Source of the DNA: Nitrosospira multiformis
GTDB taxonomy: Bacteria; Pseudomonadota; Gammaproteobacteria; Burkholderiales; Nitrosomonadaceae
Direction: 5' to 3'
NCBI GenBank assembly: GCA_017306155.1
Contig: JAFKJB010000026.1
Location: 1 to 36,896 of the forward strand
Length of the DNA: 36,896 nucleotides
The first letter of the stretch is position 1; each line of letters opens with the position of its first letter. A model generated the notes under the pieces. The model was not told where the DNA came from, did not search any database, and saw only the letters and a list, made by a program, of their open reading frames with translations. Positions 21,764 through 27,529 of the stretch are shown here, piece by piece. The position numbers were made by a program, and so were the translations under genes.

Positions 21764-22141
21764 TCAATGTTTGGGAACGCAATCGCTACATTGCCCATAA
21801 AGAATCAGGTCATATTTCTCGATTATGAAATTGCGGGGCACGTGCAAGTTTTTCTTTTTGATCCTGTCGTGAATATCGAACACCTTGCTGCAGGTACTGC
21901 ACTTGAAGTGATAATGATCATCCAGCTTGGCCATTTCGTAGCGATCCGGTTCACCTGGCAGCTTGACGGGCAGGACGCATCCTTCCGCTACTAAATCCTT
22001 CAATGTCCGGTAAACGGTAGCAATACTCAGAGAAGGTACCGCAACCTTCCCTGCCGTAAGTATTTCCTGCGTCGAAAGCGGCCTTCCCGCCGCTGAAATA
22101 ACGTCAAGAATTGCATCCCGCTGCCGAGTGTTACGTTCCAT
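21764..22141 (-). CDS. zur: Fur-family transcriptional repressor, Zur-like
   Basis: This 125-residue protein is a metal-responsive Fur-family regulator. It has an N-terminal winged helix (recognition helix around SIATVYRTLKDL, residues 39–50) and a C-terminal dimerisation domain with two CxxC pairs (CSTC at 81–84 and CSDC at 118–121) that form the structural zinc site, plus histidines H76 and H78 for the regulatory site. Fur, PerR and Zur are hard to separate by sequence alone; the Zur call comes from the genes it diverges from, which are an All3515-like PEP-CTERM gene, a COG0523/DksA2 remnant and DUF1826, all typical Zur targets. The protein is short because it lacks the N-terminal extension of Fur. 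Confidence 0.78.
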   Translation of the reverse strand: MERNTRQRDAILDVISAAGRPLSTQEILTAGKVAVPSLSIATVYRTLKDLVAEGCVLPVKLPGEPDRYEMAKLDDHYHFKCSTCSKVFDIHDRIKKKNLHVPRNFIIEKYDLILYGQCSDCVPKH

Positions 22142-22251
22142 TAGCCCGCCTCAACAATATCGTCCTATATAGATATTATCCGATTCGCGCCCTCTTAACT
22201 CCTATTATGTCATCAGCAGTCTTGACCGGACACTACTGCTATTGATATATT

Positions 22252-22269
22252 GTTATCATTAATAATAAC
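22252..22269. promoter_or_regulatory. Near-perfect 18-bp palindrome, candidate Zur operator
   Basis: GTTATCATTAATAATAAC reads the same on both strands except for one symmetric pair (positions 22257 and 22264). It lies 18 bases before the PEP-CTERM gene start, in the divergent region shared with the zur-like gene. Size, AT-rich core and GTTAT/ATAAC arms resemble Fur-family (Zur-type) boxes. The assignment to Zur is inference from context. Confidence 0.55.
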
Positions 22270-22287: not shown

Positions 22288-23148
22288 ATGAGCCTTGTAT
22301 CGAAAAGCAGTATCCTGGGACTGGTCGCTTTGGCGCTGGCGCCATTCACCTCGTCGGCAGCTTCGAGGCACGATGAGGGAATCGGGTTTTATATCGGCTA
22401 CGATGGATTATCCACATTGACTTCCGGTACGTATGCCGGATTATCCAATCCAAATTCGAACCGCCTGACTCTTTTGCTCGATCACGGCAACCATTTCCAC
22501 GGGATCGGCACATACAGCCACACTGGCCCCGTAACGACGCCCGCCGTTCTGTCAACCAATACCAATAACCATGTTCCCGAAGTTTCTTCAGGAGAGGGCC
22601 CTCTTCCCCTGGCACAGGGGAGTGGATTCTACGCGGGTACATTGCGAACAAGTACTGGAAGTTCGGAATATAGCTACCTCGGCATTGCTTCCATTCAGTC
22701 ACTTGCCAACCATCCCTCAGGCAGCATGGAAGATGTTCTTTTCCAAAGCAGTAATAACCGCTGGTCAGGTCAATTGAATAATGCGGAAATCGGGCTCAGG
22801 CTGGTCGAGAGCACGCCGGGGTTGCATATCGGGACGGAAACAACAAAGGATATTTACAACGGCGGCGATATATTTACTCTAGGGGCGGGCAATGATTTCG
22901 AGTTCAAACCGGTTTACTGGATCAATGCGGCGGCTCCAGCGGGCATTTACTCGGCAACGTTCGAGTTGCTGAACATGAGAACAGGTTCCTCCATCCTGGA
23001 TTCAGGCACGTTCCATTTCGATTTCAACGTTTCGCCTGTACCGGAACCGCGCACCTACGCAATGTTCCTGGCGGGTTTGCTCATGCTGGGTTCGATAGTG
23101 CGAAGGCGGCTACACGCTGATGCGCCCCCTGTTTTTCTTCATAAATAA
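22288..23148 (+). CDS. All3515-like, putatively Zur-repressed PEP-CTERM protein
   Basis: This encodes a 286-residue exported protein. It has a signal peptide (to about residue 24, SSAAS), a body containing a His-rich stretch (LLLDHGNHFHGIGTYSHTG), and a C-terminal PEP-CTERM sorting signal: VPEP at 251–254, a hydrophobic span (YAMFLAGLLMLGSIV) and a basic RRR tail. PEP-CTERM proteins are processed by exosortase and associate with the envelope or exopolysaccharide. The sequence resembles the All3515 group, known as Zur-regulated in cyanobacteria, and the His-rich motif could bind zinc. AGGAG precedes the ATG by a normal distance. Regulation by the neighbouring repressor through the 22252 palindrome is likely. 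Confidence 0.72.
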   Translation: MSLVSKSSILGLVALALAPFTSSAASRHDEGIGFYIGYDGLSTLTSGTYAGLSNPNSNRLTLLLDHGNHFHGIGTYSHTGPVTTPAVLSTNTNNHVPEVSSGEGPLPLAQGSGFYAGTLRTSTGSSEYSYLGIASIQSLANHPSGSMEDVLFQSSNNRWSGQLNNAEIGLRLVESTPGLHIGTETTKDIYNGGDIFTLGAGNDFEFKPVYWINAAAPAGIYSATFELLNMRTGSSILDSGTFHFDFNVSPVPEPRTYAMFLAGLLMLGSIVRRRLHADAPPVFLHK

Positions 23149-23237: not shown

Positions 23238-23699
23238 ATGACGATAACGGATCAACGCCTGCCGGTCACAGTGCTGTCCGGCTTTCTCGGAGCGGGTAAA
23301 ACCACGTTGCTCAACCACATTCTGGCCAATCGTGAAGGATTGCGCGTGGCAGTAATCGTGAACGATATGAGCGAAATAAACATTGATGCATCGCTGGAGC
23401 AGATGCAGGAAGTAGCCGCAGAACCCGATTTCAATGACCGCGCCAGCAGGGAGGAAAAATTTCTGCTGGAATTCCGTGTGCGGGATCGGGAACGCAACTT
23501 GCTGAGAAAGATCGAGCAGGCGCTTCAACGCATCGAAGACGGAACTTATGGCTGGTGCCAGGAAACAGGCGATCCTATCGGTATTCCCCGTCTACTGGCA
23601 AGGCCGACCGCCAACCTGTGCATCGAGGCCCAGGAACGCCATGAGCTGCTTGAGCGCACCCATGGTGCCGTAGCGCTGGAAGAACCGGGAGGGGTATAG
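23238..23699 (+). CDS. Chimeric COG0523 GTPase N-terminus fused to DksA2-type C-terminus
   Basis: This 153-residue frame joins two unrelated proteins. Residues 1–52 are the start of a COG0523/CobW-family metallochaperone GTPase with its Walker A (GFLGAGKTT, 15–23) and the [13 protein letters not shown] strand. Residues from about 56 onward match the C-terminal two thirds of DksA: the coiled-coil tip with D64, D67 and A69, the [13 protein letters not shown] helix and the zinc-finger region. Only two of the four DksA cysteines remain (C107 and C128; T110 and A131 replace the others), which is the zinc-independent DksA2 type. The GTPase lacks its CxCC motif and most of its domain, and the DksA part lacks the first coiled-coil helix. 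It is probably a deletion scar and non-functional as either protein. Confidence 0.8.
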
Positions 23700-23701
23700 T
23701 A

Positions 23702-24394
23702 ATGGACGTTCCAGCAGCCAAGGCGTCTTTCCTCAATCAAGATCAGGAACCCGGAGCGTACGCATATATCACCTCCGAGCTTGAGGAATTGATACGGATA
23801 TTCCATCCCTTCACCCAGATCGTGATATGCCAGCGAGATGCCAACAACGTTGTCGATCGCTATGTACAACAGGGATTGGCAAATAACCTTTTTGGAAACG
23901 GTTTTCTAACGGTTATCCGTTCTGATGAAAGTCTCGCACCGCATCTTCTGCCCCCGCTTCCTGGCCGAGAAGCAATGATCGATGATGTGCGCTTCATTGC
24001 GGAGCTTTACTCGGATCTAACCGGATGTGATGAAATTGCTCTGCGCCTGGAGGTGCTTGACAAAGCCATGTGCCCCCGCTTTCATGTCGACCGCACGGGT
24101 ATTCGTCTGGTTTGCACCTATCATGGACAGGGGACGGAATGGATCAATGACGAATGGGTCGATCGTGATAAACTTGAACTGGGTTCGCTTGGTTTTTCTG
24201 ACAGGGCTTCCGGTCTGCTTGATGAGAGAACCAGGGTGGAGGCAGCAGCACCCTTCGATATTACCCTTCTCAAAGGGTCTCTATGGCAGGAAAACGCTCA
24301 AGGAGGCGCGATTCATCGTTCTCCCGCCGTCGCCGCAGGTCAATCCCGTGTCCTTCTTGTAATGGATGCAATCTGGGATAGCAACTCCGGCTAA
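23702..24394 (+). CDS. DUF1826-family protein
   Basis: This 230-residue protein matches DUF1826, a family of unknown activity that commonly sits beside COG0523 GTPase and dksA2 genes under Zur control in proteobacteria. Visible blocks include LCPRFHVDRTGIRLVCTYHG-like sequence (residues about 123–142, with the CPRFHVD segment) and a C-terminal HRSPAV segment; conserved Cys and His residues suggest metal or redox chemistry, but no catalytic site is known. The ATG lies two bases after the preceding stop, so translation is probably coupled to the chimeric upstream gene. A tandem heptamer repeat begins just downstream. Expression under zinc limitation is inferred from context. Confidence 0.75.
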   Translation: MDVPAAKASFLNQDQEPGAYAYITSELEELIRIFHPFTQIVICQRDANNVVDRYVQQGLANNLFGNGFLTVIRSDESLAPHLLPPLPGREAMIDDVRFIAELYSDLTGCDEIALRLEVLDKAMCPRFHVDRTGIRLVCTYHGQGTEWINDEWVDRDKLELGSLGFSDRASGLLDERTRVEAAAPFDITLLKGSLWQENAQGGAIHRSPAVAAGQSRVLLVMDAIWDSNSG

Positions 24395-24400
24395 CCTTAT

Positions 24401-24456
24401 CTCTTTCCTCTTTCCTCTTTCCTCTTTCCTCTTTCCTCTTTCCTCTTTCCTCTTTC
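24401..24456. repeat. Tandem heptamer (CTCTTTC) x 8
   Basis: Eight exact, uninterrupted copies of the heptamer CTCTTTC lie seven bases after the DUF1826 stop codon. Perfect identity suggests recent slippage expansion. The tract is purely pyrimidine on the plus strand and is outside any gene. Confidence 0.95.
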
Positions 24457-24814: not shown

Positions 24815-27529
24815 ATGGCCCAGCCGCTAACTTCTGAATGGACTTCGTTTACCCTGGACAATATGGGGAGGTACCTCTGCAATACCTTGCAGGAAGCATT
24901 TGACAGCACCACACAAACCATTGCCGGCCGCCAACGCGGCTTCGACGTAATCGTTGTCGGCGGGGGAACCTTCGGGGCTGCCATCGCGGAACATCTCTTC
25001 GTAACCGACGCCGGAGGAGACGGTACACGTAGCCGTCGAATCCTCGTGCTGGAAGCTGGACCCTTCGTGCTGCCCGAGCACATGCAGAACATGCCGTTTA
25101 TGGGAGGTGCGCCGGACCTGCGCGTCCCATGGGTAAATCACCCCGCACTCAACTACAGCGGACTGATTTTCGCCATTGGCGGGCGTTCACTGACCTGGGG
25201 CGGCTGGTCGCCTGAATTGCTGGACCTGGAGTGGGCCGCCTGGCCCCAAACAACACGCGATGACCTGCGCACCCGATATTTCGAGCAGTCAAGCGATCAG
25301 ATCGGGGTAACGGCAACGAACGACTTCATTTTCGGCCCGCTTCACACCGCGTTACGCAAGCAACTTCATACTGGCCTCAAAGCGCCCGGTAACGAAACCG
25401 GTTTTTCCTTCGCCGATCTGCCTGATCATCCCGGTGTGCGTTATCATGATTCCACGCTTGGTCCCCTCAACGTCGCACTATTGCGCCAATGGCTGAACCT
25501 TCCTGCCGGAAACAGGGCATCAAAAGCGGAATTGCTTGAGCTGCTCAAACTCGAAGCACCGCTCGCAGTCCAGTCCAGGACTGAATCAGGATTATTTCCA
25601 ACGAACAAATTCAGTGCTGTGCCCGGTCTCATTCGCGCCGCCCGGATCGCAAACCGCGAGGCTGATGGCACGGGTACCATAGCGGACGCGCGCAAGAGAC
25701 TCATGATCGTTCCGGACTGCCATGTACAGGAACTTATCACCGAGACCCAAGCGGACAACTGGGTGCGTGTCACCGGGGTACGCGTCTGGCAAAACGGGGT
25801 GTCCGTGGATATTCCGCTTGCACCGCCGCGGGATGGCGGGCAAAGCGCGGCTATCATTGCGCTCGGGACGGTCGAGACGACACGTGTGGCCCTCACCACA
25901 TTCTGGCAATCGCTCGCCGGACGTGCCGCACAGCGCATGGGTTCAAATCTCATCGCCCATTTGCGCTCGAACCTGACCATTCGTGTGCCGAGGAAAGCCA
26001 TTGAAGCAAACCTGCCCCCCGAACCGTTCAATAACCTCCAATGTTCCGCGCTGTTCGTGAAAGGCAAGGCAGCCAACGGAAATACCTTTCATTTTCAGAT
26101 CACAGCTTCAGGTCTAAGCGAACTTGGTACCGACGCCGAGGCAGAGCTTTTCAAGAAAATTCCAACCCTTGAACATCTGCAGGGCATGCTTCGTGCCAAC
26201 GATAAAACCGTCGTGATCACGATTCGCGGCATCGGGGAGATGAAACCGCGCAACCCGGACAGCTTTGTTGAATTGTCCACGTTCGAGACCGAATTCGGGC
26301 GGCCAAAGGCAGTTGTCCATCTTGGAAACGCAAAAGCAGCACCAGAAGTCTTTCCAGGCAGTAACGAAACAAACATCGACCGGGCCACGTGGGATGAAAT
26401 GGATTCCGTGTCTGACAGGATCGCGCTGATCTTCGCAGGAAATGAGCCATTCGAGATTCTCCCCACCCAATCGAGCGCCATTCCGGTACCGGCGGGAAGC
26501 AGAACACGACGCCTCGCGTTACTGCGCGCATTCAGGAACCGCCGTGACGACCTGGGCACGACGCACCACGACACCGGCACGATGCGCATGGGCGAGGATA
26601 TCGCCGATTCTGTTACCAACGACTTCGGACGCATCCACGATACCACCAACTGCTATATCGCCAGCCCCGCGCTCTTTCCAACGATGGGTTCTCCTAACCC
26701 GATGCTCACTGGTATCGCCCTGTGCCGCCGCACGGCCGACCTGCTCAACAGCAGGGTGCTGCCCGGCTTGGACCCAGTCGTCAGTCCCCAGCCCGAAACG
26801 GGTTTTCGCTCATTATTCGACGGTACGGATAAGACCTTCAAGGACTGGTATCTTGCCGGCCCCGGGGGTGGAGGCATGCTTCATTTGAACGGCGAAATGG
26901 TAAGTTACGGAGATGGCGGGCTGAGACTTTTTTATTACGCCAGGGAAGCCTTCAGCGATTTTACATTGCGCCTCCAGTTCCGCATCTTCGACACTGCGAA
27001 CCATAACAGCGGCGTCTTCGTTCGCTTCCCGCGTCCGACACTTGAGCTTGCCGATGCGCTCAAAACCCGTATCCCGAACGAGCCGTTCTTCGATGCAGGC
27101 AACGCAGCCTGGAGGCCGGTCGTAGCTGGCTTCGAAGTTCAGATCGACGACAATGCGCGCGGCGACTCGGGTAAGGACTTCTATGGAATCCGGCCTGAGC
27201 CGGATGGCCTGTTCAAAAACCGGACCGGTGCCCTATACAAGATTCAAGCCGGCGATCGCGTCTGGCACCTGAACTTCAACGAGCCTGCCCTACAGAATTA
27301 CACTCCGGGGCCCGCGCTTGTTCCTGGTGTCTGGTTCGAATACGAAATCGAGGTGCAGGGCAATAGCTACACGGTTTTTCTGACCAATATCGATACCGGC
27401 GTACGACAGCAGACCACTTCATTTGACAATACCGATGGAGAGCGTGGTCGAGCTCCGGGTTTCATCGGGATACAGGTATATCCCGGCAGTACCCTGGCCT
27501 GGCGGCATATACGCATCAAAACGCCCTGA
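24815..27529 (+). CDS. GMC oxidoreductase fused to DUF1080 (3-keto-glycoside hydrolase-type) domain
   Basis: This is a 904-residue two-domain protein. Residues about 40–645 form a GMC-type flavin oxidoreductase: the FAD fold FDVIVVGGGTFGAAIAEHLF begins at residue 43, IGGRSLTWGGWSPE follows, and the C-terminal half has HHDTGTMRMG (about 581–590) and SPALFPTMGSPNPMLT. Residues about 660–904 form a DUF1080/PF06439 beta-jelly-roll (opening FRSLFDGTDKTFKDWYL, with NHNSGVFVRFPRP and GFEVQIDDNA, ending WRHIRIK). DUF1080 enzymes include hydrolases acting on 3-keto-glycosides, and such substrates arise from flavin-dependent oxidation at C3, so the fusion may perform both steps. No signal peptide is seen. 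A DUF1259 gene follows 61 bases downstream. The catalytic coupling is inference. Confidence 0.82.
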   Translation: MAQPLTSEWTSFTLDNMGRYLCNTLQEAFDSTTQTIAGRQRGFDVIVVGGGTFGAAIAEHLFVTDAGGDGTRSRRILVLEAGPFVLPEHMQNMPFMGGAPDLRVPWVNHPALNYSGLIFAIGGRSLTWGGWSPELLDLEWAAWPQTTRDDLRTRYFEQSSDQIGVTATNDFIFGPLHTALRKQLHTGLKAPGNETGFSFADLPDHPGVRYHDSTLGPLNVALLRQWLNLPAGNRASKAELLELLKLEAPLAVQSRTESGLFPTNKFSAVPGLIRAARIANREADGTGTIADARKRLMIVPDCHVQELITETQADNWVRVTGVRVWQNGVSVDIPLAPPRDGGQSAAIIALGTVETTRVALTTFWQSLAGRAAQRMGSNLIAHLRSNLTIRVPRKAIEANLPPEPFNNLQCSALFVKGKAANGNTFHFQITASGLSELGTDAEAELFKKIPTLEHLQGMLRANDKTVVITIRGIGEMKPRNPDSFVELSTFETEFGRPKAVVHLGNAKAAPEVFPGSNETNIDRATWDEMDSVSDRIALIFAGNEPFEILPTQSSAIPVPAGSRTRRLALLRAFRNRRDDLGTTHHDTGTMRMGEDIADSVTNDFGRIHDTTNCYIASPALFPTMGSPNPMLTGIALCRRTADLLNSRVLPGLDPVVSPQPETGFRSLFDGTDKTFKDWYLAGPGGGGMLHLNGEMVSYGDGGLRLFYYAREAFSDFTLRLQFRIFDTANHNSGVFVRFPRPTLELADALKTRIPNEPFFDAGNAAWRPVVAGFEVQIDDNARGDSGKDFYGIRPEPDGLFKNRTGALYKIQAGDRVWHLNFNEPALQNYTPGPALVPGVWFEYEIEVQGNSYTVFLTNIDTGVRQQTTSFDNTDGERGRAPGFIGIQVYPGSTLAWRHIRIKTP

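Follow-up and report, generated by a model that had tools for sequence, protein, structure and literature searches.

A single open frame in Nitrosospira multiformis joins the start of zigA to most of dksA2, two genes that stand separately in its close relatives, and we consider it likely that this fusion is a recent in-frame deletion scar that cost both parent genes their function. The frame lies in the window, by which we mean the whole stretch of 36,896 nucleotides analysed here, one contig (C35) of the assembled genome. In comparison with each of the three closest relatives in the genus (G005, G006 and G008), the window is missing 1326 bp at this point; because this length amounts to 442 codons, both reading frames are preserved.

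Composition of the fusion gene

The initial annotation had read 23238..23699 (plus strand) as an in-frame chimera of a COG0523 GTPase and a DksA2-type protein, and this reading was borne out by Pfam, NCBIfam and structure alignments. The frame is open over all of its 153 codons, as had been claimed. Residues 1–52 represent the N-terminal end of a ZigA-type COG0523 GTPase, including a Walker A P-loop (GFLGAGKTT, residues 15–23), and the remainder consists, in the same frame, of the last ~99 residues of a two-cysteine DksA2. Three Pfam models matched above their cut-offs, namely cobW (PF02492) over residues 9–56 (E 2.7e-17), DksA_N over residues 49–99 (E 2.5e-16) and zf-dskA_traR over residues 102–136 (E 1.1e-13). 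Among the NCBIfam profiles, positions 1–52 of the ZigA model (NF038288) correspond to fusion residues 8–59, with a score of 90.6 bits that lies below the cut-off of 600, and positions 23–110 of the dksA model (TIGR02420) correspond to residues 48–134, with a score of 117.2 bits that barely exceeds the cut-off of 115.5. The TraR model (TIGR02419) stayed below its cut-off (21.3 against 59.7 bits).

Comparison with solved structures led to the same division. The GTPase part was paired with YjiA, and the DksA part with both Pseudomonas aeruginosa DksA2 (4ijj) and Escherichia coli DksA, residues 54–147 of which (1tjl) align with fusion residues 48–140. This alignment places P63 of the fusion at E. 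coli position 70, so that D64, D67 and A69 correspond to D71, D74 and A76; the DxxDxA motif at the tip of the coiled coil is thus intact, in agreement with the earlier remark that these residues are kept. The same alignment upheld the count of only two cysteines in the DksA part (C107 and C128), the other two E. coli ligand positions being occupied by T110 and A131. One detail needs correction: the DksA part had been described as the C-terminal two thirds of DksA, and it actually comprises ~99 of the 125 residues, or roughly four fifths, of the DksA2 found in relatives. It runs from the tip through the second helix and the globular domain to the C-terminal helix.

With P. aeruginosa DksA2 the fusion therefore shares a two-cysteine globular domain, the DxxDxA tip, the C-terminal helix and a zinc-type locus; unlike that protein, it carries a GTPase fragment in place of approximately the first 26 residues. 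P. aeruginosa DksA2 is described as a two-cysteine protein that is made only under zinc starvation and can stand in for DksA1 (PMC9213440).

At its end, the fusion has GGA where the dksA2 genes of the three close relatives have their TGA stop, which adds three residues. The start codon of the next gene, encoding a DUF1826 protein, lies two bases past the fusion stop (TAG-TA-ATG). An internal ATG at 23403, which would give the DksA part alone, was considered as a start and rejected: it has GGAG three bases upstream, but identical bases are present inside the dksA2 genes of the relatives.

The operon and its counterparts in the genus

The fusion and its surroundings comprise the following features.

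21764..22141, minus strand: Fur-family regulator, Zur-like by context, 125 amino acids, divergent from the operon (PF01475, E 3.2e-20)
22222..22269, plus strand: promoter-like site (22222–22251) followed by the inverted repeat GTTATCATTAATAATAAC (22252–22269), a possible Zur box; pattern matches only
22288..23148, plus strand: PEP-CTERM protein of the all3515 family, first gene of the operon (NF040463, E 8.7e-84)
23238..23699, plus strand: zigA::dksA2 fusion (Pfam, NCBIfam and alignment with relatives)
23238..23391, plus strand: zigA-derived part, residues 1–52 with the Walker motif; codons 1–53 are 96% identical to the ZigA of G008
23392..23397, plus strand: breakpoint interval CGCTGG, ambiguous between zigA and dksA2, with 1 to 6 shared bases
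23398..23699, plus strand: dksA2-derived part, 97% identical to residues 27–125 of the DksA2 of G008
23702..24394, plus strand: DUF1826 protein, next gene (PF08856, E 1.4e-49)

Because a pattern search found no promoter-like site between the PEP-CTERM gene and the fusion, we placed the fusion second in the operon. In the region of the promoter-like site listed above, five such sites were found, compared with a mean of 2.6 (s.d. 1.8) in shuffled sequence. The strict form of the inverted repeat is also found in G005 and G006, and a weaker form in G008; before the remaining eight operons of the genus none was found, and a looser pattern gave one match, in G009, outside the operon start. The best NCBIfam matches of the regulator are to PerR and Fur models and fall below their cut-offs, and the all3515 PEP-CTERM family is named Zur-repressed by NCBI (NF040463). 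Gene content, this one inverted repeat and the NCBI family name together suggest that the operon may be under Zur control. The gene content also resembles that of known Zur-regulated COG0523 clusters: the section on such clusters in Haas et al. 2009 (PMC2770081) names together COG0523 genes with Zur sites, DksA paralogues without the C4 motif and DUF1826, and the word fusion has 0 occurrences in the main text of that paper.

Two further observations concern the sequence downstream of the operon. Directly after the DUF1826 stop, at 24401–24456, stand eight perfect copies of the 7-base unit CTCTTTC, where the three close relatives show no more than a degenerate stretch rich in C and T; the array appears to be an expansion specific to this lineage, and its length may be variable. 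Farther along, a 904-amino-acid frame (24815–27529) combines a GMC-oxidoreductase C-terminal domain with a C-terminal 3-keto-disaccharide hydrolase domain, and it is also present in the three close relatives over the portion compared.

The comparison of the locus with other Nitrosospira genomes that the initial annotation had asked for covered 23 genomes of the genus (G000–G022), the window's own and 22 others. Intact, separate and neighbouring zigA and dksA2 genes occur in 11 of the 22, and the fusion in none. All 11 intact loci have the same arrangement, in which the regulator is divergent from zigA, dksA2 and DUF1826 in that order, and a PEP-CTERM gene lies upstream of zigA in nine of them. 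The ZigA of G005 is identical to that of Nitrosospira multiformis Nl18. In G013 and G021, a second COG0523 gene stands between dksA2 and DUF1826 (L040, 5095–6162, and L039, 5105–5725) and its product is 23–31% identical to ZigA.

Across the genus, the module of regulator, zigA, dksA2 and DUF1826 is nearly all-or-nothing. The regulator was detected in 12 of the 23 genomes (E <= 1e-15), and the same 12 hold zigA (E <= 1e-10), complete in 11 and as a stub in one. Both are missing from the other 11 genomes, which indicates that the module is dispensable in the genus. Two genomes, G010 and G022, have dksA2 without zigA; G022 also has a short DUF1826-like match on a different contig.

The proposed deletion and the conservation of what remains

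Alignment of the window with the three closest relatives gave pieces of 86 to 90% identity that break at about window base 23392; with G006 the first piece ends six bases earlier, the length of the gap being unchanged. The junction in the window reads GATGCATCGCTGGAGCAG. At the corresponding place zigA reads GATGCATCACTTGTAGC in G005 and G008 and GACGCGTCACTTGTAGC in G006, and dksA2 reads ACGCTGGAGCAG in all three. Base 23391 is the last that fits zigA only. In the six-base interval that follows, zigA has CACTTG in the three close relatives, CGCTGG in G019 and one of the two G's in several other genomes. One base is certain to be shared by the two parents, and six would be shared if the parental zigA read as it does in G019 (TCG CTG G).

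Judged by the sequence of the relatives, zigA has lost codons 53–421, about 369 of 421 residues, including CICC, NKVD and the C-terminal part. We take CICC to be the CxCC metal motif, and NKVD the NKxD base motif, of COG0523/ZigA proteins. What the fusion has in common with ZigA-type (G3E) GTPases is their start, the Walker A motif and the same place in the operon as in relatives. From dksA2, about the first 26 of 125 residues are gone, which removes most of the first coiled-coil helix. The absence of the same 1326 bp relative to three of three close relatives, together with the separate genes of the 11 intact loci, substantiates the earlier proposal that the fusion arose by deletion between neighbouring zigA and dksA2 genes.

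We propose that an ancestor with the arrangement of the relatives underwent a single 1326-bp deletion in one Nitrosospira lineage, probably by slipped or short-homology recombination across the 1 to 6 shared bases, and that this event took zigA codons 53–421 together with the spacer and roughly 26 codons from the start of dksA2. Given that nothing upstream appears to be damaged, the fusion would still be transcribed, in second place in the operon, and translated. Its product would presumably lack both the function of a GTPase metallochaperone and that of a normal DksA2; two zinc-sparing functions would then have been lost, and the cell would rely on its zinc-finger DksA. DUF1826 should still be expressed, because an in-frame deletion leaves no premature stop in front of it.

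The codons that remain have changed little. Between the fusion and all three relatives there are 20 synonymous and 2 nonsynonymous fixed differences (8 and 1 in the GTPase part, 12 and 1 in the DksA part), which fall either on the window lineage or on the stem of the relatives. Placement with outgroups, for which a slightly shorter DksA part was used, assigned 2 (GTPase) and 3 (DksA) synonymous and no nonsynonymous differences to the window lineage, and 4 and 3 synonymous and 1 nonsynonymous to the stem of the relatives, leaving the rest unplaced. If half of the 20 synonymous differences belong to the window lineage, a wholly unconstrained branch would be expected to carry ~24–31 nonsynonymous differences, compared with the 2 at most that are seen, and the fusion could have been neutral for at most ~15–27% of the branch (Poisson 95% bound). 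Comparison with the three relatives gave a dN/dS of 0.016–0.044 for the DksA part and 0.025–0.099 for the GTPase part; it is 0.27–0.28 for DUF1826 and 0.17–0.21 for the PEP-CTERM gene.

The fixed differences suggest either that the deletion is recent or that the product is constrained. Between the intact relatives and G019, dN/dS of the DksA part is already as low as 0.044–0.055, indicating that this was a slow gene before the deletion. Because the GTPase stub is approximately as conserved as the DksA part, we favour a recent event over selection on the product, with the reservation that the GTPase side of this comparison comprises only 9 differences. We know of no independent use of such a GTPase fragment.

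Readings of the fusion

A deletion scar is favoured because the fusion was seen in no relative, neither parent protein is left whole, and conservation is about equal in the GTPase fragment and the DksA part. Against it stand the good preservation of the remaining codons, the intact tip motif and globular domain, the passing of the TIGR02420 cut-off and the keeping of the frame, which had a one-in-three chance. The conclusion draws on one genome of the species.

Alternatively, the fusion could be a working, zinc-controlled RNA-polymerase regulator that bears the GTPase fragment as a tolerated or disordered tail, which we regard as unlikely. TraR is described as half of DksA, working in the secondary channel of the polymerase through DxxDxA, and its homologues as acting without ppGpp (PMC6970531, PMC9239242). 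TraR corresponds to the same portion of DksA as the half of DksA2 that the fusion retains (tip, second helix, zinc-free globular domain and C-terminal helix), and D64, D67 and A69 are the equivalents of DksA D71, D74 and A76 in DxxDxA, the motif employed by TraR and its homologues in the region of the active site (PMC9239242). In addition, the DksA part has 13 fixed differences, of which only 1 is nonsynonymous. Yet TraR has ~73 residues and begins at the tip, at its very N-terminus, whereas the fusion has 153 residues with the tip at 64–69, and the 63 residues before D64 would need room in the secondary channel or close to it. In the homologue of phage VHML, an N-terminal extension could be partly responsible for the lower activity, according to a suggestion of the authors (PMC9239242). 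The fusion further differs from TraR in having two cysteines, not four, and in lying in a gene cluster common to its relatives. Selection on the DksA part alone would leave the similar conservation of the GTPase fragment unexplained, and the fusion occurs in no relative.

Predicted structures bear on the same question. AlphaFold2 gave the intact Nl18 DksA2 two helices, 3–33 and 40–76, with a mean pLDDT of 81 in the best model and 62–69 in the other four. For the fusion, mean pLDDT over five models was 47–58 (58 in the best), with residues 1–56 under 50; the model contains a short helix (50–56) before the tip, a helix at 68–101, a globular region and a helix at 129–145, and over residues 61–140 the ten-residue means of pLDDT range from 64 to 86. 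The complete first coiled-coil helix that characterizes DksA2 is absent from the fusion, its codons being missing, and the only helix before the tip is that at 50–56, predicted with low confidence. The low confidence of the GTPase part is in part a lack of data, because the alignment used (A4) contained no GTPase homologues: its 19 rows consist, beside the fusion, of DksA2 only, from 18 of 26 dksA2 loci. Two mixed MAFFT alignments, A1 (34 rows) and A3 (32 rows), wrongly aligned DksA proteins with the GTPase part and were dropped. A Foldseek search with the fusion model returned P. aeruginosa DksA2 (4ijj) and E. coli DksA as the best matches (E 9.4e-6 to 7.4e-5), and the helices and globular region of the model agree in this with a working regulator. 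Against such a regulator, these matches have rmsd values of 8.7–9.7 and TM-scores of 0.37–0.45, and the match to TraR was weak (E 0.61).

By analogy with TraR, which shows that this half suffices, a more specific proposal would be that the chance deletion left the half entire, with a disordered GTPase fragment in front of it, and thereby made a TraR-like factor that zinc limitation induces and that needs no ppGpp to act on RNA polymerase. We regard this as improbable; if true, it would illustrate in nature how half-length relatives of DksA originate.

The fusion is known from one assembled genome only, as it would be if it were an assembly or sequencing artefact and the strain in fact had both genes, an explanation that we judge very improbable from the content of the genome (3.02 Mb in 36 contigs, 98.3% complete, 0.08% contamination). 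No second copy of zigA or dksA2 was found in it. Searching for ZigA elsewhere in the genome at E <= 1e-10 gave no match beyond the 56-residue stub, and no match to the missing part of ZigA turned up on any contig. Among the other three cobW-domain matches, UreG and HypB account for two, both over their NCBIfam cut-offs, and the third (21 bits) lies in what we take to be an AAA-type ATPase, so that no other COG0523 protein was found among the cobW matches. A four-cysteine DksA is kept, over the TIGR02420 cut-off; two further DksA/TraR-type proteins fall below that cut-off, and neither is a DksA2. Moreover, assemblers based on overlaps or k-mers do not readily join sequences across 1 to 6 shared bases, which also counts against an artefact.

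Wider searches returned no other fusion. Among 125 genomes of the family, 18 had any match at E 1e-22 and only the window's own was the fusion; the 399 order and 369 class genomes gave one match each (E 1e-42), again the window's own. The order and class sets were evenly drawn and overlap partly with the others, and diverged fusions scoring worse than E 1e-42 would escape them. In the best 80 of 555 named loci, which included Pseudomonas, Methylophaga and Thioalkalivibrio, both genes are present in 26 and in one frame in none. Within these 26, dksA2 comes just before zigA in 23 and zigA comes first in two (L055 and L056, both Nitrosomonadaceae); L057 has a remote ZigA-like match, which lies on the opposite strand. 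On plasmids, 1285 records had a match; in 129 of these a single place covered at least 80% of the query, and the one of the 129 that was examined (H1) holds a stand-alone DksA-family gene of 132 codons. Among the titles listed in literature searches, none concerned a zigA–dksA fusion. To an old, conserved two-domain family we therefore give practically no credence, as the window's own is the only fusion in the family, order and class genomes searched and none of the 26 two-gene loci is fused.

Because TIGR02420 is just passed, automatic annotation may label the fusion simply as DksA. If the protein were active, it would show that a TraR-like factor can be reached from DksA by a short path. As the scar that we consider it likely to be, it would be gene loss by fusion of an ordinary sort, though seen with unusual clarity, in which a zinc chaperone and a zinc-free DksA have gone in one event from an ammonia oxidiser.
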